Below are positions 12,235 through 59,441 of a stretch of 64,000 nt of DNA, piece after piece. The notes beneath the pieces were generated by a model. The model saw nothing but the letters and a program-made list of their open reading frames with translations. It was not told the DNA's origin and did no database searches. The translations under genes and the position numbers were made by a program. Source of the stretch: Cafeteria roenbergensis (lineage: Eukaryota; Sar; Bigyra; Bicosoecida; Cafeteriaceae); NCBI GenBank assembly GCA_008330645.1, contig VLTN01000062.1, positions 1-64,000 on the forward strand. The letters run 5' to 3'. How positions within the stretch are numbered: the stretch's first letter is position 1; every line of letters starts with the position of its first letter.

Positions 12235-12241
12235 GGGGGGG

Positions 12242-13381: not shown

Positions 13382-15935
13382 CTAGCCAGTGGTCTCCGCG
13401 CCTGCAATGTCTGGCACCGCAGTTTCAACTTCAACTTGCCCCTCCAGCACGAAACCGCGGCCCAGCAACCCCTCCGCGGCGCCTCCGTCGACAAAGTGTC
13501 TGGGCCAGAACCATGCCGGGTCCCTGTCGGCCGGAAGGATTCCCGCTTCCATCCACGCAGCGGCAACCAGCTCTGAGCAGAAGTAGCTCTGCCGGTCTGT
13601 GAGTGGCAGGATCTTCGATAGGTCCGGCGGCGGCGACGGGCAAAGCGACAGGTCCCACTGATGATGAGGACCCACATGATCGGCCAAACGCACCTTACCG
13701 GTTGGGGAATGTTGGTCGCCGGGCGAGGGGCGCTGGCGCTGGGGCGTGGCCCGTTCCGAAGCGGCGGCGCCGCCACCCGTTTCTGCCAACTGGCGTCGCG
13801 CGTCCATCACGTCCGAGTCACGCCCGAGTCCCTCGGAAGCCAGCGGCTGTGACGCGCTGCCGCGGCGGACAGACGATGCAGAGCCAGCAGCCGCCACTTC
13901 AGGCGGAGCGGCGAAACCGCTTCGCTGTCCCGGTACCGGCATTGACGATAGACGAGGCGTTGTGATAACGGGGCCAGTCGTATCTCCCGCAGCGGCGCGG
14001 CGGCGCGGCGGTGAATCCGCTGACGCAAGCTCTCCGGCTAGAGCTGCCTCTGCCGCGGCCGCGGCTGCAGTTGCAGTTGCAGTTGCAGGTTCAGACGAAG
14101 CTGAGGATGATGACGGTCGAGAGAGTTTCGCGAGCTCTGCCTCGGACAGAGCCCCTCTGTGGCGAGTCGCTCCGAATCCGGCGAAGAGTTTCGCCGCGGT
14201 CAGTGCGTAGGCTCTACCGGACACTCTGGCGGCGAAACCGGCGAGTCTGTCGGCCGCGCTGCCGGAGATTCGGCTAGGCACGACGTTGACGGGCCGATCC
14301 GGTTGTCCGTTGAATCGTGATGTTGGTCGAGCCGTTGCCGCCGCAGGTGCTGCTGGTGCGACGGCGATGACGCGACGCGCAACGACTCTTGGAGCCAGCC
14401 CGGACCAGTCGTACGCATCAAGACGGTTCAGAAGTGGATAGCAGCCAGTCGCATCCCCTGTCACTTCCAGGTACCACAGGCACGGCTGCGACGAAACCGC
14501 TGCCGCTGCACGCGTCGGTGCAGGCACGACGATGCCGATGTGATCGAACGGTGACCGGGTGCCGAATCGCTGCAGAGCCGCAGCCGTGGACGTCGTACGG
14601 AACAGCAATATATCACCGGGACCCAAATATTCGCTGAGGAAAAGCCGACCCACTCGGCGGCGAAAGGAATCGCCGCCTAGAGCACGCGGTAGAGCTGGAA
14701 GGATCGGAGAGACGCTGCTCAAGCAACGTGCCATGTAGGGTCGCTCGGCAGAGCTGCGCCCGAAACCGCTGGCACCGACGTCGTCCCTACCAAGACTTCC
14801 TCTGGCTGCTGCTGCGCCGCTGGTGGTGACAACGGCGAGCGAGTAGTCGCTGCCAGACTGCGCCATCACCAGTCCATCGGCACCCAGTCGCGACATTGCT
14901 TCAGCAACTGCCGACCACTCTTCGAACTTTCCTGCAGGCAGCTCGTCGGACACGCGACCGTGGCGGCGGGCGAAACCGCCGCTGTCGCGAGGACCACCAT
15001 CGCGGCCACCGTCGCGGTCAGGGTTGGCGCTTGCAGCAAACATCTGGCCAGAAGCTGCAGTTGCAGTTCTAGTTGCAGTTTCGGTTGGCGATGTTGCTGA
15101 TTCGGCGTCTGTTGGTGGGGAGTTGCCCGGTTGATCGGCGAGTGACAGGGCCCCAAGGGTGGCCAGCACGGCAGGGTGGCTGGCTGCGTCGACGTCTGTG
15201 CAGAGCTGGTCAAGAAACCGCTGCAGAGCGATGCGTTGACGTCCAGCGGCAGTTGCTGCCACCCGGGTCGGGGTCGGTGCCCGGTCCGCTGATCGGGTCT
15301 GGGCGTCCGATGAAACTGCCAGGAGAGACAGAGCAATCGGCTCCACATCAACAGGCGTTGCTGCGCTGATGGACCGAGGACTGGAGTCTGATTCCACGTC
15401 GTCGACACCGTCCAAGCGACTGCCTGCCAGGCCGGTTCGACACTCATCCGAGGTTGTAGTTGCAGTTGCACGTGTAGTTGCAGCTGCAGCAGAGCTGTTC
15501 GCGGCAGGCAGCACGGCGACCGTGCCAGGCGCGGCCGGCCGTGGCTTGGGTTGGGCTATGGGTTGTGGCTGCTGCAGCAGCGGGGTGGTGACGTCGGTTG
15601 CCGCTGGTGGCGCGGCCAAACGAATGTCCGTGCTGACGATGCCAATGCGGAACCGCCCGCGCCTTGCAGGTGAAGACGCGGTGGTGGATCCTGACGACGT
15701 CGGCGCTGGTGCGGCGGCGGTTTCACGGGCCGCCCCTCCCAACCAACGCGGCAAAAAGCCAAACCTACGGGAAACCGCTGGCGAAGACCGAGCGGTTTCG
15801 CGCGAAGTGCGACCATCATCGGTCCCGGCCCCGGTTTCGAGAGCGGAGCTGTGGCTGCCGTTGCCGTTGCCGCCGCTGCCAGACGCAAGACCACCGGCCT
15901 CGCCAGAGGCACCGCCGTCGTCGCCATAGTCGTGA

Positions 15936-15968
<33 letters not shown>

Positions 15969-18900
15969 GCGCTGGCACCGGCACCGCGGCCGCAGGCACC
16001 ATCTGCATCGTCGCTGTTGGCCAACACGCCGTCGGCGTCGGCTAACTCCGTGAAACCGCTCGCAGGCTTGCGCGGAACCACCGTCGCGTCCGACGTCGGC
16101 GTAATCAGCTGGCAGAGCCGAGCGAGCCGTGAGCTCGGGTCACCCGATACAATGGACGATGCCATCACGCCCAGGTCAGCGGGGGGTCTTGCGCACATCC
16201 ATGTGACGTCGCCGTGAGTCACCTTGCAAGTGATGACGGGACGGGTTCCCCCGAGGCCGTTGGGCCTCCATGATGTGCCGGTGATGTCCACTGACAGAGC
16301 TGGCAGAGCCATACACGGAACCAGAACGGCGAAACCGGCGACGCGCGGCAATTTCTCCGAAACCGCCGTATCCTCACAGCGGACATCACGTGAAACCGCT
16401 GTGGAGTGAGTCAGCGCCTGTTCGGTGGGCATGGAGGCGGCATCGGCTCTGCCGGCGGGTGGTGTCGCCACCGCGCCGGCGCTTGACAGACTGCCACCGG
16501 CAGCGGCAGCGGCACCTTCACCGACAGCGGCAGCGGCAGCGGCAGCGGCAGCGGCAGATCTGGCAGGCACCGCCGGCAGCTTCTGGCGCCGCGGCCTCGG
16601 CGGTGCGGTTTCACGGCGGCCGAATGATGGGCTGGACCGTTCCGAGCGGTTTCGTTCGCTGTCAGCCGTGGACGCGGGCGGGAACAGCAAGGAGTCACTG
16701 GGGAGTCGCTTGCCTGTCACACTGGCTGCAGAGCCCGATGACGTCACGAAGAGCTCTACCCTCGATGCGACCGCACTTCCAGCGGTTCCGCCACGTCCAC
16801 CAGTGACGCTGCCGGCAGCGCTCCCAGCGACCCCACCATAGACCCCACCAGTGACCCCACCAGTGACATCACGAGAGCTGTCACTGCTCGGACCCCACCC
16901 GGCTTGGCGCCTGCCACCGGCGCCGATGCTGCTGCCGCTGCCACTGCCGTGAGGACCAACATCGGGTCTGTAAATGATGGTCGAGTCGGGCACGCCAAGG
17001 CGTCTGGCGGCGCTGGCGGAGAGTCGCTCAATTCGGCGTCGCGACGGCGACGCTGCAAGCCCACACTGGCTTCCCGATGCGTTGCTGGCGGGAGTTGCAG
17101 TTGCAGTTGCAGTCGAAGTTCCGTTGAATGTCTTGGGGCGGATGGCATGAGTGCCTGGTGTGCGTCCCCGACCGGCGGACGACAGCGAGTCAAGGGCCAG
17201 TCTAGGGTCAGTCGTCGACCCATCAGCGCTAGTTTTGGCCATCAAAGAATTGGTCACGAAACCGCCCTGTGGTCGATCGACGGCTCTGCTGACAGACGCC
17301 AGTGCTTCTCTGGGCGATACAATGCCAGTCGCAGACCCAGGCGACGTCGGTGAAACCGCTGCTCCTGCAGTGGCGATACCGGTCACCATATCTGCCCGGG
17401 ACGGCCGGCGAAACATTCTTCCGACACGCCGAGCAATGCTTGGGCCGCCGCCGCCGCCGCCGCCGCCGCCACTGCCACTCGATGCGGTTTCGCGTTTCAC
17501 ATCCCCGACCGCCGCAGGGCTTTGGCCTGCCTGCCCACTTGATGGTTCAGCTGCGGTTTCGGCAGTGACCCCAGTCCCAGTTGCATCTTGCCTCGAGGCA
17601 TCGCGAGTAAGACCGTTGCTTCCAGGCTTGGAACCCACGCGAAACCGCTCTGACGATGACGACGTCGATGCCGGTTTCGTAGCATCCCCCACCTCGAACC
17701 CACGCCGGAACGAATGAAGTGAGTCGCTCCTGGCAGAGCCAATGTAAGGACAGTCCACTTCGTCCAACGAAACCGCGTCGTCAGGTTGGCGACATTCGGC
17801 CTTGTCGATCGTTCTGCAGCCGCCAGCACCACCAGCACCAGCACCAGCACCACCAGCACCAGCACCAGCACCAGCACCAGCACCAGCACCGGCACCAGCA
17901 CCAGCACCGGCACCACGGCCACCGCCGCAGTCACCGGCGTCGTCATCACTGTCGTCGGAGACGTCATCAATGTCCAAAAGCCCGTGAAACCGCGCGGCTC
18001 CTTCCAGTGACACAGATCGTCGTCTCCGTCCGGAAGATCCCATCGGCCCGACGCGAGGACCAACACTCCCAGAGAGCGGGGTGCGCGAAACCGCAGGTGG
18101 GGGAAGTGGGGGGGGCGCCAGAGTGATGGGCGGGAGACGCCGTGAAGCCGATGCTGGGCAGTGCTGGTGACCGACTCCTGATGGTGTCTCTGAAGTGAAG
18201 TAGCTCGCTCCCTCGGAAACGCCCGAACCTTCATCGGCGTTTTTGGGGCTTGTTGGAGGTCTGGGCAAGTCACCCGTGATGGGATCAAGATGGACACGAG
18301 ACTGGCGCGTGACGCTGTGGAGACTCTCTCTTTGACCCCTGCTGGTGACGTCGATGCTGGAGTCAGACGACCCCGCGGCGCTGAAACCACCCCTCGGCGA
18401 CGGAACAGCCTGCTGGTGCTGCTGCGGCGAACCACTCTTCCCCTGCTGCCGTTGCCGTTGCTGTTGTGACCGGTGCTCCTGCGGTTGCTGTTGTTGTTGC
18501 TGTTGCTGCTGCTGGTGCGTGAGACGCAACTGCTCCTGGAAGTGAAGTTTCAAATCGGCTGCGAGTGACTCCCTGGCATCGGCACTTCCTGCCGCAGATC
18601 TGGCAGCTTCTGCCAGAGAGCCGGTGCCACGACGTGAGCGACTCTCTGTCAGTCGCCGGCGAGGCGCCGGTCGATCGTCGAGTCGGTGGAACGATTCGCC
18701 GAACTCCTTGGCAAGGTCAGACAGGTCAACGTCACAAAGACCAACATCAGCGTCTGACAACCGCAAGCTGGTCGGCTCGCCGTGACGGCCACATCCAAAG
18801 TGTCCAGACTGCGACGCAGCGATTGATGTCGGGCTGACTGAGCCGTGATGGGGACTCTGATGGAGCGGGCGGTGTCCGTTGCCACCGTCGGCGAGCCCGT

Positions 18901-21526
18901 CGTCACTTCCGGCTTCGCTATCGCTCGCACCCGGCGTGCCGTCAGACTCGCCACCCTTGCTATCCGATGAGTCGAGTTGCAGTTGCAGTTGCAGTTGTTG
19001 CTGTGACGGAAGCGGGTGTCCCTCGAAGGCAAAGCGTGGCGACGCAGCGGGCCCGCCCTGCGACGCCGGCGAGGGTGCCTCACCGGACGATTGTGCGTCG
19101 CTGGGCGACGCGCATGTGACATTGACGCAGCGGTGACTTGCCCGCCCCGCAGTCGTGACGGCAGGCGCAGCCCGCGGTGCTGGGTCCATTCCGAAACGCA
19201 CCGGCGGCCGGGGCGGAACGATCGAAGCTAGCTCCGCTGTTCGGCATCCGGCCGCGTCCAACGCAGATTGCAGAGCCGCCCACAGCGGCGGAGCGGCCTT
19301 GCCGCCGCCCGAATCGTCCCTTTCGTGACTGGCCCGTGAGTGGGGTCCGACCCCCGTGGGAAGTGACCCCGATTCCGTGCCTGCCTTTGCTTGCGCCACT
19401 GTCCCCGAGCGACCTCGGAACGAGACGGGCGGAAGGATCCCTCTCCCTGTGACGAACGCGAGCGACGCCCGCGTGTTGCCTGCGCGCGCTAGCCAACGCA
19501 GACACTCCTGCCTGGCAGAGCTGTCAACGCAAATCCTTCCCGTCACGTGCAGCAACAGCTGAGACATGGCTGCGTGGTCGGATGTCAGCGGATCCGATGT
19601 GACGCCAACAGAACTGTCATCAGCAGGAGGCGGCAGCGGCAGCACGACGGTGGCTCTGCTGCTCGCGATGTGGGTCGTAGGAGTCCCTCGGGGGTTGTCC
19701 CCCTCCGGCCCCGGCGCGGTTGCAGCCAGCGCAAGCTCCACGCATCGGATGGCAACTGCAACTGCAGCATGGCTTGTGACAGGCAAGACAAGCGGCGAAA
19801 CCGCCGAGTCGGCCGACCGCGTGTGTGATCGTTCCAGCCAAAGCGGCACATCGACGAACCCGCAGGATGATGGTCCAACCGCAACTCGCAGCACAAGAGG
19901 GCCCCGCCTCCAGGCTGACTCCGCAGCGGCGCGGCACGGCGGATCCATACGCCGATCGTGATGGGCTGTTGATTGGCCGCGATCCGCAACCCGTCCGACC
20001 GGTCCCCTGTCGCCAGCGGCGGGTCCACTCGCCGGAGCGTGGGCTGAAGCCGCGCTAGGCAAACATGACACAGCTTTGACTCCGCTTTGACCGCCAGCAT
20101 GTTGGCGAGCGACACGTTGGTGACTAGCTGACGATGGAGAGGGGATGGGCGTCACCCGGCTCTGAAGAATCGACACCGGCATCACACGCTGACGATGGCG
20201 ACGAGGTGTCGCCGCAAGGTGACTGGCGTCTGACTCCGACGGGACCCCGCACAGCGCAAGAGCAACCGTCAGCCTGGCCAGGTCTGCGTTGTTCAGCGGA
20301 AACAGCTCAATGACACGACCCGCCGGTGCTGGCCCACCACCTCGTGATTTGTCCAATCCGTCGGCGCCGCTAGTGGTGCGGGGTTGGGCGGCGCTTGCCG
20401 CTGCGTTTGCAAGCTGGCCAGAGTAAGCGAGCGGTGCGGACAAAGGTGGCGCTCGGCGAGTGACTCCACCAGTTGCAACGGACAATAAAACGGCCGGCCG
20501 ATCGACAAGCGATGGGTGTCTGGCCTGCGTCCGGCGCCAAGCAGCGGCTGCGGCTCGGCTTGCGGCAAAAGCAGCTGGCCACCGCGGCGCCGCCCACCGC
20601 TCTTGTCGAACTGCAGGTGGAAGGCCCGACGGGGAGACAGAGGCTTCGTCCTCTCTCGCAAACGTTGCCGCGGCATGCGCGGCAGCCGTATCAGACGACG
20701 CGGCGACGCGAAAAGAGACCGCACCGGCACCGGTTGATACAGCAGGCGTTGTGCCAGCGCCGCCTCCACCAGCCGCTGCGGTGCGCGCCGCCGAGCCATG
20801 AAGCAGCCTCGCGACATCGACCTCGTCAGCAAACGCTGCGTCGGAAGCCCCCGAAGCGGCGACCATGGCTGCGCCAGGGGCCGAGCCTTGAGCCGGCATG
20901 GCTAGAGCGCCCAGCCTTGTACTGAGGCTGGCGGCAAGGCGTCGGGAGACACGCTGACGGCACCGACAGGCGCCGAACGGCGTTGGGGCACCGATTGCTG
21001 CCGCCGCCGCACAGGCAGCGCAAGAGCCTGTGGACGGCCCCAGGGGCCGAGGCAGCGCCCAGTCGAACGCAAGCAGATCCTTCGTGGCAACTGCGCCGAG
21101 AAGGCCACCGGTGGGGTGCTTGTACCAGCGAAGGCACTGCGGCGTGATGCGGAAATAGCGGCACCTGTCGCGGCCGCCGCCACCCCCGCGCTTCAGGAGC
21201 CACCCCTCGAACAGCGGGCCCTTGGGCATGGGCAGGGGGTGCGCCTCGGGCTCGGCCATTCGGCCGGGGCCCGCGCGCGCGCCCGCTGGCTGTGCGCAAG
21301 TGGCCGACGGGCAGGGCGGGCGAAGCATGCGGCCACAAACGAGAGTTTTGAGCAAATCAGCAGCGGGACTGACGCGCATAGTTCCAGACGCATTCAAGGC
21401 GCCGCGACGACCAAACAGCAACTCCCAAGCAAACGGCAGGCCGACCTGCTCCGGCCAGAGCAGCCCATTCAGGCCACGCGCCTGGCCGCGGCCACGCAGC
21501 GCTCCCGGGTAGTCAGTGAGCTCCAT
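13382..21526 (-). CDS. Giant PH-domain protein with C-terminal YiiX/NlpC-P60-like papain-fold domain
   Basis: The frame is open for about 2,714 codons from the outermost ATG (21,526). An ATG at 21,259, just before the PH domain, is an equally good start. The N-terminal PH core reads FEGWLLKRG, then CRYFRITPQCLRWYKHP. Its closing helix (LFPLNNADLARLTVALALCG) comes about 300 residues later, after a low-complexity insertion. The middle is disordered, with Gln, Asp and Gly-Ala runs. The last 400 residues contain GDILLFRT, then FDHIGIVV (His codon 14,542-14,540), and finally SYFCSELVAAAWMEAGI (Cys codon 13,579-13,577). This His-before-Cys order fits the circularly permuted papain superfamily (YiiX/NlpC-P60-like), so a hydrolase or acyltransferase acting at a PH-bound membrane is possible. 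About 23 copies of GAAACCGC/GCGGTTTC lie in this gene. No introns are evident. Confidence 0.78.
15926..15968 (-). repeat. GTC/GAC trinucleotide run encoding poly-Asp
   Basis: A run of (GTC)n on the + strand encodes about eleven consecutive Asp residues in the disordered middle of the PH/papain-like protein. A similar triplet run encodes Ser in the SEL1L-like gene at 46,876-46,920. Confidence 0.85.
17824..17925 (-). repeat. (CACCAG)n microsatellite encoding Gly-Ala repeats
   Basis: About 100 bp of near-perfect CACCAG/GCACCA hexamers encode alternating Gly-Ala in the PH/papain-like gene. A closely similar run lies in the neighbouring coiled-coil gene at about 23,382-23,465, also in the Gly-Ala frame. 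Confidence 0.85.
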
Positions 21527-21872
21527 CCCACCCTTGAGGCCCGATTTGCAGTCGCAGCGGCCGATTCCTGGCGCGGGTGTCGCGGCAGATTTGGCGTAGG
21601 TTTTGTTTTGGCCTTCCAACTATGGGCCTCGATGGACTGAGCACAACTCTGTGGCCAAAACCCTCCGCAAGTTTGCTCGTCGCCCTGCCCGGAGCCCTCG
21701 CCCCCCCGCCCCCATGGCCCCCTCCCCATGTCCGCGCTTGCCCACTCAACCACGCGCAACACAGCTCCGATTCCGCCCAGCCCGCGCCGCTCCCCGGCTG
21801 TCGCTTGCGCCATTGACCGGTCGCCCAGCCAGCAAGGTTGTTGTCCGAATACCCTCCAAATAGGAGGCTCAG
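21527..21872. other. Intergenic region between two - strand genes
   Basis: About 350 bp separate the outermost ATG of the PH/papain-like gene from the stop codon of the coiled-coil gene. Open frame continues for 93 bp upstream of that ATG without another ATG. C-rich tracts occur near 21,690-21,725. I see no clear promoter element. Confidence 0.5.
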
Positions 21873-24770
21873 TTACCGAGTCGGGGTTGCCAGAAACGAC
21901 GCAATCGCACCGAAAATGCCCCCCCCACCACCCCCCTCAGCGGCCGACCCGCCCCCTGCCGCGCCACCGGCTCCGCCCATGCTGCCAGTCTGAACCGCGC
22001 CTGCCGCTGCCGCCGGGGGGGCCGCTTGGTGCGGTGGCGTGGCCGGGGCGCGGACACCGGCCGTTGCAAGGACGTTGCCGGCCGCCGCGGCCACGCGCCG
22101 CGCGCCACCCGAAACCGCTGAAGCAACCGGCCGACGGCCAAGAAGGCCGGCGTTTCGGCGGTTGACCCCGCCACGGCCAATATTTGCGCCGACGATATGG
22201 GCAGAGCCGCCCGCCAGTGACAGCCGCGCTTGCCCAGCAATGGCGGCGACGTCGTCGTCATCAAAGCCCAACACGGCGCTCAGCACCGGCATCAGCATCG
22301 CTGGACCAACACCAACGCCCGATAACGGACCAACACCGGCAGAGCCGCTGGGGAACGCCGTGGAGCCGTTGGATGACGAACCGCTCGAAACCGCTGTGCC
22401 AGCTCCCCCTCCGCCACCATTGCTGGCTCTGCCTGACCCCATCACCCGACCATCACCCGCTGAAGTCGGCACGCGGCCAATGGCGGCAGAGCCGCCCGCC
22501 GCTGCCAACATTCCAAGGTACTGAACCACAACGTTCTTGGCGTAGGCCCGGGCAGACTCTGCCGCGTGTAGCTCCGCACGTGCTGACTCCAGTGACTCCC
22601 GCATGAGCGACTCGGCCTCCTCAGCGCGTCGCACGCGGTGCTCCGCCGCAACGAGGTCTCGGCGAAACTGTTCCCGCGCCTCGGTCAGCGCGGCATCAGT
22701 GCGCGCCACAGCAGGCGCAGCTGTCCCCGGTGCAGCCGCCCTGACCTTGGATGCCGATGGGGCTGCAGCTACGGCTGCAGACGGAGTTGATGTTGCAGCT
22801 ACTACAGGTGAACTGCTAGCTGGTGAATTTCCAGTTGCAGTTGCAGTTGTAGTTGTTGTCGTCGCTTGAGACGCGTCCTCGATTGAACCTGCTTCAAGCA
22901 ACTTGGAAGGATCGGATTGCGTCGCTGCCGCGGGGGCCGCCGATCCCTCCTCCCCAGCGACGTCGCTGGGACCGCCGACTGACCCCACCCGTCTCGATGG
23001 CGAAACTGCTCGGGCCTGCGCCAGCTGCTGGCTAGTCGCCTTGACCGTTGCACGAAGTGACTCCACTTCCGTTTGTAGCTCTGCCGCACGTAGCTCTGCC
23101 GCGTTGGCCCGGACGTTGGCTCGATCAGCTGCCGCTGCGGCCTCGCGCCCCGCTTGCTCCAGCTCTGCCAAGCGCGCTTGCGTTGACTGAAGCACCGACC
23201 TTGCTGCAGACAGCTGATCTGTCAGGTGATCGTGAGCGATCGACAGCTCTGTCACTCGCAGCTGAGCAGCTCTGGCGTCGGTTGCAAGCTCGGAAGCAGC
23301 AGCAACTGCCGCCTCCAACTCCGCACGGTGCGTGCCAGGAGTCGCTGGACCAGTCACTTCGTCATCACCTGCAGCACCGGCATCAGTATCAGCATCAGCA
23401 CCACCAGCACCACCAGCACCAGCACCACCAGCACCACCAGCACCAGCAGCACCATCAGCACCAGCGCTTGCACTCAGTTCAGCTGCTTCCGCTGCTTGTG
23501 GAGGCGCTGCCGACACTAGACTCGGCGCGATGCCGTGGGCAACGCCTCTTGCTGCGCTGTCCGAAGCAGTGCTTGCGTCAGACCCAACTCTGCCAGAGTC
23601 TGCGGCCGCACCGCTGGCGGTCGCGTCACCAGCACTGGCCGGATGAGCATTGGGTGAGTTCGCGGCCGGGACGGCTGCTGCTGCGGCTGCTGCGGCTGCT
23701 GCCACTTCGTCAGAAGATCGGTTCAAGGCGACTTCCATGGCGCGGACGGCGTCGTCTCGTTCGGCCAAGAGTTTTGCCGCCTCCACCTCTGCGGCCTCCT
23801 TCGCTGCCTCGGCGTCTCTGAGCCGCTGCCTTGCGTCCGCCTCGGCCCTCCTGGCTCTGTCAGCCGACGCGTGAACAGCCGCCATCTCGGCCTGCAAAGC
23901 GTCCACCCTTGACTGACCAGCAGAGCTCACAGAGGCGCGCTGCCGCTTCATTGCCCGAGCCAGCGCCACGCTGCTCAATCCGCCGTTGTGGTCAAGCAGC
24001 TCGGTCGCGTGGGAGACACCTGCCGCGGTCTCCAAGGCTGTAGCGAACGCGTCCCGCTCTGCAGTCATGCGCGCGGCCTTGGCCTTGGCCGCGCGGGACC
24101 GATCCTCGAGCTTGCGGTTTCGGGCCTGCAGGCGTAGGGCCGCAGCCTCAAGGTCTGCACGAGACATGGCCTGGATGTGGACGATCTTTCTCTCTGAAGA
24201 GGGGGCTGTGGCGGGCGTAGCCGCAGCACTGCTGCGCGCGCTTGTGCTCTTGGTCGGGCCGGCTCTGCCGGAGACTTGCGCGGAAACCATGGCCGGCGAT
24301 GCTGCTCCTGCTGCGGCAGCAAGCGCTGGACCGGCGGCCCTCGGGGTGGAGTCCGGTCGCAAGGTGGCATGCCGAGATGCTGGCATCGCCTCCGTGGCGC
24401 TGCTCACCGCCAGGGGCTCTCCCGAAGCGTGCGCAGCGCCGCTTGCGATGTCGGCCAAGCTGCCGGCGGCCCTGGCTGGGGGGAGGGCCGGCGCGGCCGA
24501 CTCATCGTGTCCTGGACCGGGCATCGCGACGCTGAAGCGGATGAGGTCCATACCCCGGCCGAGGAACCTGTTCATGTTGTCCATGCCGTCGAGGGCAGCG
24601 ATGGCCGCAGAGCACGGGTTCCGGAAGCCAACCCTGCGGTCCTGGGCGAGCTTGGCGGCAAGGGCTGCTCCTAGGAGGCGAAGAGCTGGGCCAATGAACC
24701 GCACCAAGCACCACGGGGTGCGCGTAGCAGCAGCTGGGACTTGCGCAGCCTTGGCCGCGCTGTGCGCCAC
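21873..24770 (-). CDS. Coiled-coil protein of unknown function
   Basis: The frame is open for 965 codons. The 5' limit given here is a GTG. The first in-frame ATG is at 24,584 (DGMDNMNRFLGRG), so either that is the start or an upstream exon joins the well-behaved 60 residues before it. Long heptad-rich, Ala/Glu/Arg-rich coiled coils cover about residues 195-255, 270-355, 475-590 and 690-760, separated by Ala/Ser/Pro/Gly linkers and a Gly-Ala hexamer run. The C-terminal 150 residues are Gly/Ala-rich with short hydrophobic stretches. No catalytic motif or targeting signal is recognisable. It could be a structural, cytoskeletal or golgin-like protein, but nothing here decides. It runs in the same direction as the PH/papain-like gene. 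Confidence 0.72.
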   Translation of the reverse strand: MAHSAAKAAQVPAAATRTPWCLVRFIGPALRLLGAALAAKLAQDRRVGFRNPCSAAIAALDGMDNMNRFLGRGMDLIRFSVAMPGPGHDESAAPALPPARAAGSLADIASGAAHASGEPLAVSSATEAMPASRHATLRPDSTPRAAGPALAAAAGAASPAMVSAQVSGRAGPTKSTSARSSAAATPATAPSSERKIVHIQAMSRADLEAAALRLQARNRKLEDRSRAAKAKAARMTAERDAFATALETAAGVSHATELLDHNGGLSSVALARAMKRQRASVSSAGQSRVDALQAEMAAVHASADRARRAEADARQRLRDAEAAKEAAEVEAAKLLAERDDAVRAMEVALNRSSDEVAAAAAAAAAAVPAANSPNAHPASAGDATASGAAADSGRVGSDASTASDSAARGVAHGIAPSLVSAAPPQAAEAAELSASAGADGAAGAGGAGGAGAGGAGGADADTDAGAAGDDEVTGPATPGTHRAELEAAVAAASELATDARAAQLRVTELSIAHDHLTDQLSAARSVLQSTQARLAELEQAGREAAAAADRANVRANAAELRAAELQTEVESLRATVKATSQQLAQARAVSPSRRVGSVGGPSDVAGEEGSAAPAAATQSDPSKLLEAGSIEDASQATTTTTTATATGNSPASSSPVVAATSTPSAAVAAAPSASKVRAAAPGTAAPAVARTDAALTEAREQFRRDLVAAEHRVRRAEEAESLMRESLESARAELHAAESARAYAKNVVVQYLGMLAAAGGSAAIGRVPTSAGDGRVMGSGRASNGGGGGAGTAVSSGSSSNGSTAFPSGSAGVGPLSGVGVGPAMLMPVLSAVLGFDDDDVAAIAGQARLSLAGGSAHIVGANIGRGGVNRRNAGLLGRRPVASAVSGGARRVAAAAGNVLATAGVRAPATPPHQAAPPAAAAGAVQTGSMGGAGGAAGGGSAAEGGGGGGIFGAIASFLATPTR

Positions 24771-27800: not shown

Positions 27801-28256
27801 CTGGCCATGCACGACCCGCAGCATTCGCCGCGCGGCGTGTGGGTTGCTGCAGCGGCTTCGTATCAGTGGCAAAAGGCAGTTGGCGAGTTTTGGTTGTGTG
27901 CCCTGGCGATCGCGCTCGCCTTGCCCCGCCAGACGTGCCGTGAGCGACCCGCCCAGCCGCCGCCTTGCGCAGTGACTGGGCCGCTGCCTGAATCGGCTGC
28001 GGTTTGCGGGCTGCGCACGCACGGCGTTTTGTCCACCCCCTTGAGCTCCGTCCCACGGGACACGCTCCCGCTTCGCGACCCCACACGGGATCCATAGTCG
28101 AGTACAGCTCCGACTCGCACGAGCCACTTTGGGCCGATGGTGCGCGCAATCTCTCGCGTTGCAGCGGCGGAAGCCATGGAGCCAGGCCGTCCCGAATTCG
28201 CTGCCCAACCAATTCCGAAAACTGGGGGCGGCAGAGCGCGGGTCAGTCGCTTCCAC
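27801..28256. repeat. Duplicated 3'-flank segment of the RCC1-type genes (first copy)
   Basis: The sequence from the stop codon to TTCCAC (28,251-28,256) is nearly identical to 31,425-31,879 after copy 2, so gene and flank were duplicated together. No gene is visible in it. Confidence 0.75.
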
Positions 28257-35316: not shown

Positions 35317-35398
35317 GCCATGGGCGTGGCTCCCCTTGACATGTCCTTCGACAAGGCGGCCGCGAAACTTCGTCGAGCGCGGGAATGTCACTTGTTCG

Positions 35399-39018: not shown

Positions 39019-39083
39019 TGCAAAAACACACCGGCTCCTTGAGCAAAAACAAAGCCAACGAAGAACGCACGTGGCGTGCCAAA

Positions 39084-49340: not shown

Positions 49341-49887
49341 CAGCCGGGGCTGCTGACACGCGTTGCCGCTTCTGCGAGGGCGAGTAATCGCCAGCGGCGC
49401 TATGCTCGTGGTGCGGTGGTGGACAGTGGTGCTTGAGTGTGCGTGTGTGTGCGGAGGCACGGGCAGAGGGTCGCAAGCATTGACGCCATTCACGAGAGCA
49501 CCGGCGGGCGGTCCGCCAAGCTTCACAGGGCGCTGCAAGTGTGCGCGGGTGTGCGGGCTTGTGCAGCGCGCACCGTCAATGAGCCGCGCGCTGCACAACC
49601 GGGGACTGTGTCAGGCCTGCCCCGACGGGCCCAGGCAGCCGTTGATGGCAGCATGAGCACCCAGCCAAAAGGTGTGCCAAGACCGGACCGGCCTGTCGTG
49701 GCTTTCGTGGGGGCGTGCGCAACAGAAGCGCTCGGGCTGTTGCAGTTCGGCGCCAGAGTCGTTGAGGCGCGATGCGTGATTGCCACGAATAGGGAACTCT
49801 CGCTTGCCGTGTTTCTCCGCCGGCTCTGCCGGCCCTCGCGGCTGCCTCGGTCGAAGGTCCCACGCCGTCCGCGGGCGAGCGCGGAGC
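49341..49887. other. Intergenic region between SEL1L-like and GGNBP2-like genes
   Basis: About 550 bp between two + strand genes. Several open frames cross it, but none has a recognisable domain. It contains a GTGTGCGTGTGTGTG run (near 49,436-49,450). Nothing else was recognised. Confidence 0.5.
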
Positions 49888-52800
49888 ATGGCAGCCGCTG
49901 CGCGGCCGCCCGCTCCCCCCGGCAACGAGGTCATTTCGGCGCCTTCGTGCCCGCCTGCCCCTGTGGACGTGAAGGCGCGCCTGAGCGCTGACAAGCGGTT
50001 CACCGCGGGGGCCAAGGGCACTCCCCCGCTCTTGGCCCTTGCACCAGCGCCCGGCCACGACGTGACGGCCCCCGCGTGCGTATGCGCCGCGTGCACTGCG
50101 GCCATGGCCGAGAGCGCGTGCGAGCTGGTCCGCTCCGTGGCGAGCATCGGGTACGCCACGCCAGGCCTTCGAGAGACCGAGCTAGCCTTTTCTCCCGACG
50201 AGGCTTACAGGACGCTGTCGCAAGCACCAGTGTGCCCCAGTGAGCTGTTTTTCGCACCGCCCCGTTGCGTGCTCCGTGTCGCGCGAGTCCCCGCCGTCGG
50301 TCGCGGCGCTGCTTCGCGCTGCGTTGGCTGCCCGGAGCGTTTGCACTGCCGCTCTCGCCCACTCCCGGCCGCCGCGCGCAGCGAAGCGCCTTCCCTCGCT
50401 GTCGCCGAGCTGCCCGTCGCCCCCCGGCTTCCCTTGACCCCGCCTTGCTTGCAAAACTGCTTCGCGTGCCCGCGCCCGCTTCGATGCAGCCTGTCTCACC
50501 AACGTGCGCAACGTCATCGCGCGGGCCGTCGCCCCGGCTGGACGCCACCACCGCCTGCCCAAGTGGCCGAGGCCGCTGCTCAGGATCTTTCAAGACGTAT
50601 CGGCCCTGCCGGACGTCGACCATGCAGTGCCTGCCGGAGCAACGCCAGGCGGGGGCGGCTCTGCAGAGCCGGAGGCCCAGCGGCTGGCGGCCTCCGGCGG
50701 CTCGCTCGCATCAGCTGACCCCATTAGCTCTGCACTCGCCGCCGTCGGCAGCAGCGGCCTTGGCGGAGCCAGCTCCGGCGGACCGGGCAACGCTGGCGGC
50801 GGAGGTGGACCATCATCGGGCCGACGATCGAAGAAGGGCAAGAAGGGAAAGCGATCGACGAAGCGCGGCTCAGCCAAGACTGGCGGGCACCATGGCGACG
50901 GGTCGGCCTCGGGAACGAGCGGCGGAGGCGGCGGCGCCGGCGGCGGCAGTGGTGGCGGCAGCGGCGGCCACCAGTCTGTGGAGCAGCAGCTGGAGCAGCT
51001 TCGGCGGTTTCGCCTTGCCATTCGTCCCGAAGTATTTGCCCATTTTCGTAACATTGAATTCGTCTCGGACGTGTTTGACTTCCAAGCTGCAGCAGCGCGC
51101 GGCGGCGGCTTTGCAGGGTACTCGATCCGAGCAACCGCCGCTGCTGCAGAGGCTGGCAGGGAGATCACCGGGGTGCCTGCCAACCGATGTGACCTGCACA
51201 TGCACCCTCTGAGCGACGTCTTTGCGCTGCTGTCCAGCGAAGCCGACGAGGCTTGGATCGAGTGGTGAGTCGTCCGCAGTGGACATTTATTTGGCGGCTG
51301 GGTGTGGGCAAGGTGCGGTGGGCCTTGACAAGCTTGCGGCAGCGGTTGTGAGGTGCTAGCCGCACCAGCCAGCCGTTGCCTGCCGCGCTGGCCCGTCATT
51401 GCTTAGCGCTGTCAGGCCCGCTTGCTAGCTTGCTTGCTTGCTTGCTCGCTCGCTGCAAGGTCTGCAAAACAATCGATTATTGTGTTTGTTTTCGTTGTTT
51501 TTGTGTTTGGCGGATGTTTTTGCGCGACGTGCAGGTGGGACGCTCTTCCGCGCGAGGCCCGCGTTCGGGTGGTCCGCGTGCCAATGGAAGGCATTCGCTC
51601 CGAAACGGACGCACATCTCGACCTGTTTCGGTTCTGCGGCAACTGCCGCAGGCGGGTGAGGCGCGCGCTGCAGGTGCTGCTGGCGACCTCGGACAGGGCG
51701 CGCGATACTGCCATCGCGGAGCTGGGACGGGCTGACGCTGGAAGCGTTCCTGGGAGCGACGGCGGTTTCGTCGCGGAGCACTTCGAGTGCTTGTGCGTCG
51801 GCGAGCCGTCGCGCAGGGTGGTCTCGCGGTGGGCAGCGATGGGACACGAGGTCGATGATGGTCTTTGTCCGGAGGACAGCGATGCGTCGACGTCGGACGA
51901 TGAGGACGACTACCAGGAGTGTGATGGAGCGCTGATGGCCCCGGAGGCGGCGCGGCAGTTTCGCCTTGGCGCGCGCGAGGGTGCGGGAATGGCAGTGGCG
52001 CTGGTGGACCATGCCGGCAGAGCTGGGGCTGATGCGCGCAGCAACGGAAGCGACGACAGCGCCTCTGGCGGAGAGCCGGGGTCTGACTATGACGGTCGCG
52101 ACGAGGGGGGTGCCAAACGTGCCACGCACGCTCGCAGGCTTGACCGTTGGGGGGCCTCTGAGGACGGCTCTGCCCACCAGTCGCCGGGCCTGACCCGGCT
52201 GGCGAGCGCTGCAACAGCCGTGGGGGCCGATGATACGGCCGAGGCAGTGCGCGAAACCGCCATCAGGATCAAGGAGTTTGTTCGGTCCATCGTTGGGCCG
52301 GGCAGTCTTGAGGCCATCACGCCGACGGACGACGCCGCCGCGTCACTCGCGTCCAGCGAACCCACGAGTGACCGCCCGACCAAGCCGACTGCTTGCACGC
52401 ACGGCGCCGGCACCGGCGCTGGCACCGGCGCTGGTGCCGACACTGCCAGCGTGCCTGCCGCCGCCAGGCGGGGCGCGACGTCGACATCGGTCAGCCCACC
52501 ATCGCCTGCAGCTCACCCGCTGTCGCTGCCTCCCAACAGCTACGTGACAGTGAGCCCCACCCACGTACTGAGCCTGGTGCAGTCGAGCGTGCTGAGCTGT
52601 TTCAACGCACACGCACTGTTCAGCCGCGGCGGCATCGTCGAGGAGCGGCACGCGTCCACGGCAGAGCGAGCACAGCTGGAGGTCACGGTGTGCGTTGGCA
52701 AGGCGCTGCTGCGGCGGCTGCGGCACGAGTGGATGGCCGTGCGGTCAGAGACGTCGGCCCACTTTATGCTGGTCGCTGCAGGCATCGACACGTGCAGGGC

Positions 52801-55800
52801 CAAGGCGCGATCCATCGTGACGGCGGCAACGACGCAGCTGAACCGCGACATGGCACTTCGCGTTGCTATGGATATGGAAGCAGAGGCGGAAGCGGCGGCG
52901 GCGGCTGCAGCAGCAGCAGCGGGTCATTCCGGCAGCGGACACCACGTGGCCGGTCGCGGCGGCGGCGGGTCCGGTCGGAACTGCTGCTGCTGCTGCCGCT
53001 GCTGCTGCTGCCGCTGCAGCTGATGGTGGAGACAGCAGCGTCACCGGAGGAGGGGCGTCCTCACGAAACCGCAAGCGAAGCGGACGAAACCGCAAGAAGA
53101 GAGGACCAGCATCAGCTGACCCCGCAGCGTCAGCAGAGCACCAGCCGGCAGCAGCTGCCACCACCAACAGCAACAGCAACAGCAACGACGACGACGACCC
53201 CTTGCAGGCGGCATCCGCAGCGAGTGACTTCATGACGGGTCTCGGCGAAGGCCTGGCGCTCGGCGGTTTCGCGACGGTCGGGTCGCTCGGCGACCCTGTG
53301 ACAGGGGACCAATTGAGCGTTGCTGCGGTTTCGGCAGGCGGAGTTGCCCTGGCAGTTACTGACGTCGGAATCCTGGGTGACGGCAACCCCTCGCTGAGCG
53401 TGTCAGACCCCATCGCCCGTGCCACTGCTGGACTGAGCGCTGGTATCACACCGGCCACCGGTGCGCTGTCGGGGGTGCCGCCGGCCCCTGTGCAGCCTCT
53501 CGCCGACGGCATCCCAACTGCAACTGCAACTGCAACTGCAACGGTATCGACATCTGCCACAGGCCCTGGCGACGCAGGTGCCGCTGCGGCGTCGGGCGGT
53601 GAGAGCGTCTCTGCCCCAGAGGCCGCTGCTGGCGCCGACGACCACACGTGGGATGAAGCGAGTGAGAGACGCCTGTTGGCCTCTATGGGATGGAGCGGCG
53701 CGACTGCAGGCGCAGCTGCAGCCGGCGAAATTGCGGGCGATGATGGTCCTAGCAACAGCAACAGCAACAGCAGCAGCGGAAGCAGCAGAAGCAGCAGCTC
53801 CACCACCGCGCCTGCCGACTGCGGTGGAGACCACAGCCTCCAACGCCAGCCTCCCGCGGATGCCCTCACAGCAACAGCCGCGTCGTCGTCGCTTCCAGTG
53901 ACGAAGACGTCAGCGCCCGGCGCGGAGTCGACGTCTGAGAAGACGTCGACGATGGGCGATACGGTGAACCGGTCCCTCCAGTCGCGCGCCCAGCGGTTTC
54001 GCGCCCAGAGGCAGGCAGAGCTGCGATCCGCTGACGGCAGCAGAGCAACCCGCAAAGCGGGCGCTGGTGCCGATGACTATGGCGACGACTATGGAGATGA
54101 TTGTGATGACGACACTGCCGATAACTATGCCCATGACTATGCCGCCGGCGACGATGTCGAGGCAGCCTCTGGCAGCGCTGGCGAAGCGACCGCTCCGCAA
54201 GAGTGCTCCAACGCAGATTCGAAGTGGGTGCTTGTGGCGGATCCAGCGGTTTCGCGTCGTGATGAGACCAGTGACGCAGCCGGCGGTTTTGTCGGCGGTG
54301 GGTTTGGCCGGCCTGAGGAGGACGAGGGCGATGGCGGTTTCCGTGATGGTACGGTTTCCCAGCGCGACCAAGTTGAAGGTGACGTTGAAGTTGACGTTGA
54401 AGTTGACGTCGACCTTGACGACTTGCTTGCGCGAAGGGGTCGGCCGGCGGACAAATCAGAGGCCGACGTCGCGTCTCTCACGCTGGCCCTGTCAGATGGA
54501 TCGGGCGCCACGCCTGTGAGATGGAGCCCCCGCAGCGACCCATCGGCGATGGATGTGGGGTCAGCTGACATGGCGTCTCGGCTGGGGTCGCTGCTCGGTC
54601 AGTTGCAGCCATCGCTCATCGCGGACGGGCCACGAGACGACGCAACCACAGCACAAGCAGCAACTTCAACGGTGGCTGGCGCTGGCGGCAGATGTGACGC
54701 CAGCGGCGACGACAGCGGCGGCAGCGATAGCGACAGCGTTGACGAGGACAGCGGTGCAGACCGCGCGCGGCGCCCTGTCACTGGCGGGAAGCAGCGCGAA
54801 ACCGCTGGTTACGGTAGAGCGGGCCGCGATCACCAGCGTGCGGAGTGGCGCTCTGGCGAGGACAGCGGTTGCACCGGCGCTGCTGCCGCCGGCGGCCGCG
54901 CTGCCGCTGCCGCCGCCGCATCTGCCGCAGCGGCAGCGGCTCGGAGCGCGGAGTTGGAGAGCGGAGTTCGCAGCGGTTTCGCCGCCCTCGCTGGCAGATT
55001 TGCGATTGACGTGCAGCCGGCGGACTCACAGGCCGGGCCGTCCGGCAGCCGGCGCGGTGGTGTTGGCTCGCGGAGCCGTGCCCTCAAGCGGCGGGGGGCG
55101 GCTGGCTCTGCTGTGGACGCGTTGACGTCGTCGTCGTCGTCGTCGTTGCCGTCGTCCACAGTGCCGTCGACGTCTTTCGAAGCTAGTGCCGGCCGCCTTG
55201 ATACAAGCCGCAGCCAAACCGTCGACGTCGCCACTAAGCTTGCCAATATGCGACGAAACCTCGGACGCTTCGCAAGAGGCTCTGCCGGGACGGACGCGGC
55301 AGCTGGTGACAGCAGTGACGAGTTCAGTGAGAGCGACAGCAGTGACGGTCCAGGGCTGTGTTCCGGCGGTGCCGGCGCCGACGTCGACTGCGGAGAGAAG
55401 GCTTCTGAAGCCGACGTCGACGCTGCCGCCGCCACAGCTCTGCCAGCAGGCGAAGCCGCTGCCTCTGGTGCGCGGAATGAGTCCCCATCAAGAGCCAGTC
55501 AGCAACCTGCCGGCCAGTCGTGTACAACCCCCGGCCGCGGCTCAGCAGAGGCCGAAGACGATGTGCCCGCTGGTGCTGCCGCCGCGCCGTCGCTTGCTCA
55601 GCCAACCACCACCTCCAACGCGGCGCGCCCTGCTGCAGGCACCGCTCCGCGCGACACGCGAGCAGCAGCCGCACAACGTGGGGAGGACGACGCTGGGGCC
55701 GACACTGGTGCTGGTGCCGACGCTGGTGCCGACGCCGGTGCTGGTGCCGACACTGGTGCCGACGCCGGTGCTGGTGCCGACGCTGGGGCCAACGCTGGTG

Positions 55801-58800
55801 CCGACGCTGGTGCCGACGCTGGTGCTGGTGCCGACGCTGGTGCCGACGCTGGTGCTGGTGCCGACGCTGGTGCCGACGCTGGTGGCGACGCTGGTGCTGG
55901 TGCCGACGCTGGTGCCGACGCTGGTGGCGACGCTGGTGCTGGTGCCGACGCTGGTGCTGGTGCCGACGCTGCGGGGTCTTCAAGCTCGCCGGCGGCTGGC
56001 GCGCCGCTGGAACGCACGCTAGCCCAACGCATTATTGATGCGATGATGACGAGACACCCGCCGTACCCGTCAGGGGTAGAGCAGAACCGTCTGTTTGCGA
56101 AGCTTCAACCTGTCTATGTGAAACGGTTCGCGGCCGGCGACATCCCATCGCTGTCTGAAATCAAGGCCAGGTGTGCAACGGACGGCAAAGCCGCTGCCCA
56201 CGCGGCCGTCGCCGCGTCCGTCAGCCACCAAGCATGCCTACAGGCATCGGCAGCGGCGGCCGCGTCGCCGCTCATGCCTGGTGCTGGCGAGAGTCAGCTG
56301 TACACCCTCCCCGTGACTGTAGCAATCGTTTCGCAGACCGCGGCCGCGGAAGTTGCCCCCGTCCTCATGCCCGAAGGCATTGAGGAGGCCCTTCTGGATA
56401 TGGTAGCCAACATGGGCAGCGACAGCCGCATGTGCCAGGAGAGCGGAATTCCCTTTGGAATCCGAGACACGCATCCTGGCTTTTGGTCTCAGATGGCGAA
56501 CCTTCGACAACAGATTGCGCAGCGGGCCCCTGGCGCCGCCCCAGATGACAAAGCCGCAGCTGCAACACCAGGCGACCATCTGCCCGAGCGAGCATCGGCA
56601 TTCGGACCGGGATCAGCTGCTCAGGCGCCGGGTGCCGCCGCATCGACAGCCAAGGCGACGGGCGCCGCCGCTGGCTCACAAGGCGGCTCTGCCGTCAGGC
56701 CCGGCGCGGAGGCAGACGGCGACACCGACGGCGCGACTGCCAAGCGCCAATGGTCGCGCCGCATGTTTGGCCCGGGTGCCGCGGGGCTGTACCGCGGCAC
56801 TCACTCGACGGGCCTGCTCGCCGCCGTCGCTGCGGCCGACTCTGCCGCAGGCGCCCAGGTCATAGGAACGTCGCCGAGGACCTTCATCGTGCGCGAAACC
56901 GCCCCGGAGTACGGGCCGCTGACGTCTGAGCTGTTCGAAGAGGTTCGTAAGGAGCTCTGCGCGGAGGGGATGTATGCGGTCGGAGTGGGCCTCACGCCGT
57001 CGGGCAGAACCCTCTCCCGGGCACTGGCCCACCGCGCGGCCTCACGGGGCGATCGAAACGCCGCGACGTGTCTTCTGTTCCTCGTCGTGGCCGTCGCATC
57101 GGACCCGCGAGCGCTGCGGGTGCCGCACTTTCCCTGGGGGGAAGACGCGTGGGGCCCGCTGCGGCTGAGGCCGCCGCCCCCCCGCCGCCCCGCTGCTGCT
57201 GCTGCTGCTGCGACCACCCAGACAACGGACGCGTCAGCTGCCGCCGCCTCGTCAACCACCACCGCCATGACGCTTCGTTCACCATCGGCTTCAACTTCAA
57301 CTTCAGCGTCAACGTCAACGTCAACGTCAACTTCGGTTGTGACGTCCGCGCCGGCGGCCAGCAGCCTCGAAGACTTCACGCAGATGATCGAGGCAGGCAT
57401 CCCCAGGGATGTGCGGGCGCTCACCAGCCCGGAAACGCGCTGCAGGGCGGAGGACCCGAGGTACAGCGCCACTGCGGCTGTGGCTGCCGAAACCGCTGCC
57501 GAATACGAAGCGTCTGCCACAGCGGTGGTGCTCGCTGGCACGAGCAAGGAGTCCGCTGCCGCTCGAGCGATCGTGTCCGCAGCCGCGGCGGCAGGCATGT
57601 CGACAGACGAATACATGCAGCGCACTGGCGGCGGGTCCAGACGTCGCACACGGAGGCGCCTGACAGGGCATGCGACGCCGTCAGGTGGTCCCCAAGGAGC
57701 CGCTGGAACATCAGCGCCACCGCCGGTAGCACCAGCAACAACAACAACAACAACAACAGCCATCGTCGCTGCTGCAGGGGCCAGCAGGGTCGATGCCAGC
57801 GCAGCGGCACCCTCAGAAGGCGCCACAGCGGCGCCAGCTGGTGCCGGCGAACCCACTCGCGAAGCTGACCCTGACAGGAAGCACTCGGCCGCAAAAGAGC
57901 TGCTGTGGGTTGAGTCGGCAATGCGCTCTGTCGCCTTTGCAGAAGCCTTACCGCAGCTTCGCAGCGAGCTTTGCACCCTAGCAGATGCCGCCAGCCGATG
58001 CGCTCAGGCCGCTCCGACTTCGGCTGCGGCCGAGCCGCCAGAGGAGGAGTCATCGATCGACCAAGAGCAAGCGGATGAACGCGCCCGCGCTCAGTCAAGC
58101 GTGGCAGGGGCCTTGGGCGAGGTTCTTGCGGAGGGCAACTTCAACTTCCATTCCAATGAGTCATTGCATCGCCTATCATTGTATGCGAGCAAGTACTCTC
58201 CTCAAACGATTGATTTTGACAATGAGCTGACCGTGCTTTCCACGGCGCTGCTCGACGCTGGCTTTCGTCGACCAAAGACGACGCCGCCTCTCGCGGCCGC
58301 TGCGCCCGTGACAGCGAACGAGTTGGCGTCGCGCCCGCCTGTGCCCGGCCCGCCCCGGGGGCTGACCATCGTCCCCAATCGAGGCATCGAGGTGTGTCGG
58401 CTTCACGACGCTTTGGAGCCGCAGGCCGTTTCCGCTACAACGAGCGCACCAACCGTGCTGCAAGACAGCCCTCTGCCGCCCGATGCCGATCAAACCGTGG
58501 CGCTGCAGCAAGCGGCGGCAGTGTTCGCTGCAGCGGCTGCAGCCACCGCCGGCGACGCGAACGCTGCGGCGGGAGGGGGGCGGCCGGCGGAGAGCGCAGC
58601 ACCCACACGGGCCAGCAAGCGCCTGTCACGCGGTCATCACCAGCCAGCAATAGGGCCTTCAGGCTGGTTGGCAGGGTCCGAATTCGACCAGCAGTACATG
58701 TCCGTGAAGGCCTCGGCCGAAGACGATGCAGCGGCTTGGGTCGTGCCAAGTGCTGTGGTTTTGTCCTTTCGACAAATGATCACTGGGAGGGCACCTTCGA

Positions 58801-59066
58801 GGAGTGGTGAGAGCGAGCGTCCCGGTGCCGACGGCCATGCCGGGGCTGCGGCGTCGGCGGCCCAGCTCACCAGCGACTACGAGCTGCCGATGATGCTGGG
58901 ATCAGACCCAGCAACAGAGGAGCGAGCCGCAGCCTGGATAAAATCGGTTGGCTTGCACTCCCTTTGCCCGTGGGAGAGCCAGTCAGAGGAGGACTGGACG
59001 CCGCCAAATCAGCGGCCCGTCGCCAGCGTGTCTGACGACTGCCCCTCGTCCAGCCACAGCGCCTGA
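49888..59066 (+). CDS. GGNBP2-like zinc-motif protein with very long C-terminal extension (spliced)
   Basis: Exon 1 (49,888-50,239) starts MAAAARPPAPP and has the Cys pair in CVCAACTAAMAESACELVRS. Intron 50,240-50,489 joins in phase 1 to exon 2 (50,490-51,264, CDLHMHPLSD...EAWIEW). Intron 51,265-51,534 (GTGAGT...GTGCAG) leads to exon 3 (from 51,535): WDALPREARVRVVRVPMEG, RFCGNCRRRVRRALQVLL, then ERHASTAERAQLEVTVCVGK and FMLVAAGIDTCRAKARSIV. This order of Cys-rich and helical blocks matches gametogenetin-binding protein 2, a poorly understood metazoan protein. Between about 52,940 and 53,010 the frame changes by one base in a G/C-rich run, and the rest (basic RNRKRSGRNRKKRG, then about 2,000 low-complexity residues) is open to 59,066. 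The slip is an indel or an unrecognised intron. The C-terminal extension includes a Gly-Ala-Asp tandem block and has no known domain. It could be a second gene fused by the frame. Confidence 0.68.
54376..54420 (+). repeat. GACGTTGAAGTT microsatellite in the GGNBP2-like extension
   Basis: Tandem 12-bp units encode alternating Asp/Val/Glu/Val. A related AACTTCAACTTCAGCGTCAACG run encodes Ser-Thr at about 57,292-57,335 in the same gene. Confidence 0.8.
55697..55970 (+). repeat. GGTGCCGACGCT-type minisatellite encoding Gly-Ala-Asp repeats
   Basis: About 270 bp of 6- and 12-bp units (GGTGCCGACGCT with variants ACTGGT and GGCGAC) encode GADAGADAGAGADAG-type sequence inside the GGNBP2-like extension. 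The frame stays open, and the copy number is probably variable between strains. Confidence 0.88.
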
Positions 59067-59076
59067 ACTGGCCTTA

Positions 59077-59440: not shown

Positions 59441-59441
59441 A

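Follow-up and report, generated by a model that had tools for sequence, protein, structure and literature searches.

The stretch of DNA analyzed here (the window) comprises the first 64,000 bases of contig VLTN01000062.1 of Cafeteria roenbergensis, and the element under study is a short word, GAAACCGC/GCGGTTTC, that recurs in several long open reading frames (ORFs). The word occurs 57 times in the window, where an order-2 Markov model predicts 3.4 copies, and it ranks first among the 8-mers of the window. An ORF of 2,745 amino acids on the minus strand (13382..21619) contains 23 copies, from 13451 to 19804, and 21 of these read YGAAACCGC. No Pfam match at E<=0.01 was found for this ORF, and 0 of 7,972 scored candidates reached E<=0.001, with the limit that relatives may be missing from the collections or predicted shorter. 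The ORF of 965 amino acids at 21873..24770, also on the minus strand, has three copies (22111, 22387, and 24114) along with eight copies of a further word, GGCAGAGC, and shows a weak GRIP match, under the curated cut-off. On the plus strand, the ORF with Sel1 repeats and LamG (43203..49340; 2,045 amino acids; SEL1L-like ORF) carries 16 copies, from 43644 to 48610, and 10 copies of GGCAGAGC. The last long ORF (52863..59066, plus strand; 2,067 amino acids), for which no Pfam match at E<=0.01 was found, carries 11 copies from 53065 to 57496. Three more copies lie 5′ of it at 51004..52260 (51004 and 51762 on the minus strand, 52253 on the plus strand), two of them inside the ORF 51422–53023, which gives 14 copies from 51004 to 57496. 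Our recount thus agrees with the 23, 3, 16, and 14 copies that a first-pass annotation had assigned to these four regions.

Codon usage does not reproduce these counts; their reproduction by a genome-wide codon-aware null is what the first-pass annotation had named as refuting the signal. In the three longest window ORFs, 23, 16, and 11 copies of GAAACCGC were seen, as compared to 2.1, 1.2, and 1.0 under a synonymous-codon null. Across the genome searched (36,303,456 bases in 167 contigs, the contig of the window being C62), GAAACCGC occurs 5,003 times and its reversed word 2,390 times, while the full word YGAAACCGC occurs 4,553 times and its reversed word 1,404 times. On contig C1 (1,533,563 bases), there are 90 copies of YGAAACCGC among the matches listed, which were taken as complete. 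The density of GAAACCGC is 0.89 per kb in the window and 0.138 per kb in the genome, i.e., ~6.5 times higher in the window, which is therefore a local peak in a signal that extends across the genome.

Enrichment outside the window was evaluated in 86 non-overlapping ORFs with a minimum length of 350 codons (240.7 kb in total), defined from stop to stop with the longest taken first and without gene models, in 25 pieces of the genome (the window, L005–L023, and L025–L029). Pieces lying inside other loci (L001–L004), the mitochondrial piece (L024), and two pieces used for allelic comparison (L030 and L031) were excluded from the ORF counts. In the first null, synonymous codons were shuffled within each ORF and the protein was kept; in the strict null, the base at the codon junction was also preserved. 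YGAAACCGC was seen 150 times in the 86 ORFs (10.9 expected under the first null and 35.7 under the strict null), and GGCAGAGC was seen 266 times (38.8 and 88.9, respectively). The reversed controls were at expectation under the strict null (8 vs. 7.2 for YGAAACCGC and 20 vs. 23.4 for GGCAGAGC). Of the 8-mers with 10 or more occurrences in these ORFs, GGCAGAGC and GAAACCGC hold ranks 1 and 2 by z. Because L007, L008, and L019–L022 were fetched for word clusters, and a set of 14 ORFs used below was picked for carrying the word, pooled figures overstate the genome average. We therefore give separately the 14 pieces off C62 whose positions were not word-chosen (42 ORFs, 116.9 kb). Under the strict null, these contain 17 copies of YGAAACCGC for 7.5 expected (P=0.002), 4 of its reversed word for 2.3, and 70 of GGCAGAGC for 29.5 (P=1.7e-10). 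Three of the 14 pieces are on contigs previously known to carry the word; the remaining 11 (35 ORFs) still hold 8 copies of YGAAACCGC for 2.6 expected (P=0.005) and 40 of GGCAGAGC for 18.3 (P=8e-6). Thus, the choice of hot loci does not create the enrichment, although the enrichment is stronger there.

The form of the word was examined in 155 copies of GAAACCGC. Base −1 is mostly C (82%) and less often T (15%), so this pyrimidine is part of the word itself, whereas the first-pass annotation had counted it to flanks that are often CG. Further out, G is found at −2 in 66% of copies (43% in shuffles) and C at −3 in 55% (36% in shuffles), and past about three bases the flanks are near background. 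Strictness and frame were tested in the 14 word-bearing ORFs (76.0 kb). YGAAACCGC was found 131 times for 7.6 expected, with 110 copies of CGAAACCGC (6.2 expected) and 21 of TGAAACCGC (1.4 expected). The other 26 one-letter neighbors of CGAAACCGC were not enriched (in sum, 51 vs. about 58), a class that neutrally decaying old copies would populate. Each of the six frames was enriched, between 8.6- and 16.3-fold, with most copies in frame 0 (74 of 135). The orientation of the word follows opportunity, with 52 copies in sense and 83 in antisense for expectations of 4.9 and 7.2. The proposal that the signal occurs on both strands and in varied frames, and lies at the level of DNA, is borne out by the enrichment in all six frames and on both strands, which survived two synonymous-codon nulls.

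The word is not a palindrome, but its short inverted arms (GCG-AAAC-CGC) allow weak folding as DNA. Watson–Crick double changes at the three arm pairs total 1 for 3.3 expected, compared with 84 vs. 3.6 for the intact word. Among the other loops listed between the same arms, enrichment reached at most 1.8-fold (YG-NNNN-CG), and at most 2.4-fold for the arms of GGCAGAGCC, a companion word described below (GGC-NNN-GCC). T at −1 would retain a T–G wobble, and the corresponding GTGAAACCGC was found 18 times for 0.7 expected. Since compensating arm changes are near absent and other loops are weak, a hairpin is unlikely to be the recognized feature, and a hairpin or RNA structure was rejected as a candidate. 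Nucleosome-like or helical spacing was rejected as well: histograms of up to 600 bases in 20-base bins showed no peak when judged by eye, without a statistical test. The sole spacing feature seen in this way was that GCAGAGC pairs are in excess at short range. No preferred distance between the main and the companion word was seen, and a composite of the two was not retained as a candidate.

The companion word GGCAGAGCC is found on both strands of the window (35 copies within 670..63346, with 64 copies of GGCAGAGC). Genome-wide it is commoner than the word first reported, with 10,998 copies vs. 994 for the reversed word, and its close pairs number 636 vs. 7. GGCAGAGC is enriched in a noncoding sample of 7.1 kb (7 vs. 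0.6), and the observed-to-expected ratios (O/E) per ORF of YGAAACCGC and GGCAGAGC correlate (rho 0.52, n=61; 0.39, n=52, without word-chosen loci). A second companion is probably GGAAGGATCG, with 421 copies genome-wide vs. 24 for the reversed word and even strands; under the strict null, GGAAGGAT was seen 27 times in the ORF sample for 9.3 expected. Another candidate, AACTGCAAC, was rejected as a DNA-level word, as it is frame-bound (31 of 43 copies in one frame) and probably represents a protein-level repeat. Two places with GGCAGAGCC may be mentioned. C51:94001-101361 (L030:1-7361) is very dense in it, with 26 copies in 7.4 kb. In the window, a 3.2-kb inverted repeat (1–3199 and 5292–8487; 99.25% identical) surrounds a center of ~2.1 kb in a low-GC stretch, and its arms bear copies of GGCAGAGCC.

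The density of the main word differs strongly between genes. By the GC content of third codon positions (GC3), the O/E of YGAAACCGC is 13 to 18 in ORFs below 0.72, 5 to 11 at 0.72–0.84, and 1.7 at 0.84–0.88; the top GC3 class has an O/E of 21.6 in four ORFs, two of which are from word-chosen loci. ORFs with GC3 below 0.72 carry 1.1 to 1.7 copies per kb. The seven ORFs of at least 5 kb with GC3 below 0.8 (three from word-chosen loci) contain 104 copies in 48.3 kb, as compared to 6 copies in 27.5 kb for ORFs of 1 to 1.5 kb in the same GC3 range. The long word-bearing ORFs that could be named are ordinary host genes (Sel1/LamG, BEACH, SNF2, CwfJ, NPL4, FtsX, and CC2D2A-like), and no Pfam match was found for the others; long cold ORFs (TIG/cadherin and LamG) are also present. 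One protein recorded under Cafeteria roenbergensis, retrieved with a BEACH gene, showed 44% identity across just 17% of the query. The first 30% of the seven long ORFs contains 15 of the 104 copies. When opportunity is taken into account, only a mild 5′ deficit is left, with an O/E of 6 to 10 over the initial 1.5 kb and of 11 to 18 farther on, and an effect of gene position was rejected.

In the window, nothing was found from 24,122 to 43,643, and to the left there is a single copy at 8658..8665 on the plus strand. The RCC1-type region has no copy, as the first-pass annotation had noted. However, the contrast that it drew with these genes is weaker than apparent, because the codon null gives the RCC1 cluster (seven ORFs, 13.3 kb) just 0.1 copies, and its lack of the word is mostly a lack of opportunity. 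If the cluster had the 13.6-fold enrichment found in the remaining ORFs of C62, just ~1.5 copies would be expected, from which 0 does not differ significantly. The RCC1-type cluster (25460–38444) consists of direct and inverted copies that are ~71 to 94% alike, and it has enriched words of its own, e.g., GCCTCGCC and CCGTAGCC.

On the scale of contigs, 80 of 97 close pairs are located on C29 and beyond. A separate compartment or a set of contaminant contigs was nevertheless rejected: hot and cold genes are interspersed along C62, and enrichment of the word persists on C2–C20, which makes a foreign contig set unnecessary. A viral origin or spread was also rejected. Among the viral contig stretches fetched (63 with GGCAGAGCY triples and at least 120 containing CGAAACCGC pairs), just two, L149 and L178, both short, pass the densities of 0.3 per kb for GAAACCGC and 0.5 per kb for GGCAGAGC, and they do so on few copies (2 and 1, and 2 and 3). 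Contig C167 (43,160 bases; 29% GC in the 10 kb examined) carries nad4, nad6, and a nad11-like frame.

The origin of the copies was studied in the SEL1L-like ORF by alignment with the best four of 24 homologs, of which three were counted (42 to 48% identical in the searched region). At aligned positions, the residues encoded by the 16 copies agree with the homologs in 25.5%, as compared to 40.3% overall (P ~0.03 for random placement). By reading of the alignment, five of the 16 copies (43644, 44967, 45085, 47859, and 48213) are in ungapped blocks, and the other 11 are beside gaps or in unaligned parts. Because the alignment is ungapped at these five, they look like substitutions, in which the word replaced other residues. 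A second comparison was made between C51 and C152, an allelic-looking pair of 7.4 kb, where eight of nine 8-mer copies are kept and the ninth differs by a one-base gap near further gaps of that kind. In the assembly, small contigs repeat parts of larger ones (C34:311614 / C131:16840, as well as C51:98378 / C152:10608), and these repeats are probably retained alleles.

Several known systems invite comparison. No earlier report of the words was found in the literature searched, where whole-word matching misses words inside longer strings. The DNA uptake sequences of Neisseriaceae and Pasteurellaceae are about 9 to 12 bases long and reach up to about one per kb. They resemble the words described here in size and in density in coding sequence, but our main word shows no enrichment of mismatched forms, and an uptake system is not known in this case. 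Bacterial Chi is an 8-base non-palindromic word, recognized in double-stranded DNA, that is over-represented in coding sequence and oriented with replication. It is likewise a short non-palindromic word of coding DNA, whereas the orientation here is neutral relative to genes. In Caenorhabditis elegans, short words restricted to particular chromosomes (dosage compensation, pairing centers) are dispersed and read by chromatin proteins. These are also eukaryotic, short, and dispersed; here, in contrast, the sampled copies fall mostly within the coding ORFs of single long genes, between which cold genes are found on the same contig. Cyanobacterial HIP1 (GCGATCGC) and related words share with YGAAACCGC a short fixed form, thousands of copies, location in genes, and a place among the top over-represented 8-mers. 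However, HIP1 is palindromic, bacterial, and linked to methyltransferases, whereas the words here are at most imperfect palindromes (GGCAGAGCC has only 3-base arms) in a eukaryotic nuclear genome. Their density varies more than tenfold between genes and is lower genome-wide, and PF00145 and PF01555 had no match. HIP1-type words reach about 500 to 2,500 copies per million bases according to a published account (PMC4390886), a range that is not reached by YGAAACCGC (about 125) or GGCAGAGCC (about 303); only the seven long low-GC3 ORFs attain it (~2,150 per million). HIP1 is the nearest analog in behavior (PMC4390886), and bacterial uptake sequences are the nearest in placement (PMC1939737). On the features tested, YGAAACCGC belongs to neither class, since it is non-palindromic and less dense, shows no enrichment of near misses, and is not accompanied by a PF00145 or PF01555 match.

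The word is thus a signal at the level of DNA, is neutral to strand and frame, tolerates little change, occurs genome-wide, and is co-enriched with a second word. A fixed word of this kind, near-invariant except for C/T at one place and partly made by substitution, is best explained by a specific factor that reads double-stranded DNA, and the binding site is the best reading among the candidates of the first-pass annotation. With about even confidence, we propose that YGAAACCGC is the recognition word of a sequence-specific double-stranded-DNA factor in gene bodies, that GGCAGAGCC, and probably GGAAGGATCG as well, belong to the same type of word, and that the copies are kept by selection. A DNA-binding or DNA-modifying protein acting within gene bodies would recognize YGAAACCGC, and copies would arise, at least partly, by point substitution in coding sequence. 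Selection, or a strictly recognizing conversion bias, would then keep them where the protein tolerates the changed residues, so that copies would accumulate in long, weakly codon-biased genes. The role in the gene body could be, for example, chromatin organization or the guarding of long transcription units. We infer from this pattern that a protein reads the word, that selection and not drive keeps it, and that the act is located in the gene body.

Several observations weigh against this proposal. No protein is known to read the word, and no assay-based search was made; selection would also need to maintain thousands of copies. The residues encoded by GGCAGAGCC in the SEL1L-like ORF are less often aligned than others (43% vs. 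71%, P ~0.02), but where aligned they are not less conserved (41% vs. 40%). In seven genes, the O/E is not lower inside Pfam spans (4 vs. 0.15 inside and 47 vs. 2.42 outside), these spans being marked by hand from the best stretches and wider than reported for the SEL1L-like ORF. Avoidance of constrained sequence therefore rests on one gene, and the C51/C152 alleles, the only pair examined in this way, differ at too few places for a test of constraint. GGCAGAGCC is looser at its ends than YGAAACCGC, as its variants with A and T at the first base and T and A at the last base are enriched too (26 vs. 4.1, 20 vs. 3.1, 50 vs. 4.4, and 12 vs. 2.6 in the 14 ORFs). GGAAGGATCG rests on few copies, and GGAAGGAT was found only once for 0.9 expected in the pieces from C2–C20 and C120. 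The main word is sparse in the large contigs (8 copies in 86.7 kb; 5.2-fold), which excludes a requirement for it in every gene. In noncoding DNA, the 8-mer was found 0 times in 7.1 kb for 0.4 expected, and 4 times in 36 kb under a looser definition.

Molecular drive, through biased gene conversion or through preferential DNA uptake and recombination, could spread the word without any function in genes and let it accumulate where protein constraint is weak; we regard this as possible but doubtful. Drive would suit a dispersed word, neutral to strand and frame, that is densest in low-GC3 ORFs, abundant in an ORF without detected homologs (13382–21619), and placed by substitution at variable residues in the SEL1L-like ORF. 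The near-miss forms at the ends of GGCAGAGCC are likewise expected of a graded drive. However, drive as described in published work acts gradually with similarity to the word, and the main word shows no enrichment of its one-off forms. A separate drive would be needed for each of two or three unrelated words, and, according to one source (PMC6972860), a sexual cycle is not known in Cafeteria. That the word is a methyltransferase site, kept because it is methylated as proposed for HIP1, is unlikely. HIP-like words are associated with methyltransferases in cyanobacteria, as stated in the HIP1 account (PMC4390886). Here, six-frame searches of the genome gave no match to PF00145 (C5 DNA methylase) or PF01555, although the controls matched 10 of 14 and 11 of 14 genomes, respectively, and intron-broken genes can escape such searches; for PF05063, no control genome was matched.

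An RNA-level signal in long mRNAs, such as a splicing silencer, a stability or small-RNA target, or a hairpin, would account for copies within coding ORFs, for the weakly folding arms, and for a T at −1 that keeps the wobble. It appears quite improbable, as orientation follows opportunity, few or no Watson–Crick arm swaps were found, and the other loops listed are little enriched. A short inserting element, whose 9-base units would keep the frame, is still less probable. Some tandem copies exist, and the 11 SEL1L-like copies beside gaps or in unaligned parts may have been inserted. The residue of a spreading short repeat, which the first-pass annotation had considered, is nevertheless disfavored by the near-background flanks, the lack of one-off relics of the main word, and the five copies in ungapped blocks. 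Finally, the way in which long low-complexity proteins use codons or amino acids hardly qualifies as the source of the word. It would fit the highest density in low-GC3 ORFs and the excess in frame 0, but protein-keeping synonymous nulls fall short 14-fold and 4-fold, and the reversed words are at expectation. The frame-bound AACTGCAAC, unlike YGAAACCGC, does look like a product of such usage.

Beyond recognition of YGAAACCGC by a factor in gene bodies, a broader and rather speculative reading is that the coding sequence of long genes in this eukaryotic nuclear genome holds a small vocabulary of fixed non-palindromic words. Dedicated factors, reading them in double-stranded DNA, might use them to organize or guard gene bodies, or to mark self in a cell into which foreign and viral DNA is continually taken up, while proteins accommodate the words. 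In bacteria, HIP1 and uptake sequences are known cases of short invariant words that take precedence over synonymous choice, and even over residues, throughout a genome, and the reason for their maintenance is a matter of debate. With two or three independent words, a eukaryotic case would make it possible to ask whether such words require competence or methylation at all. If the organism is Cafeteria burkhardae, which hosts giant viruses and virophages and in which Ngaro elements have been described (PMC8547959), its four published strains with PacBio reads allow a direct test. If the words are binding sites, they point to a new gene-body factor.

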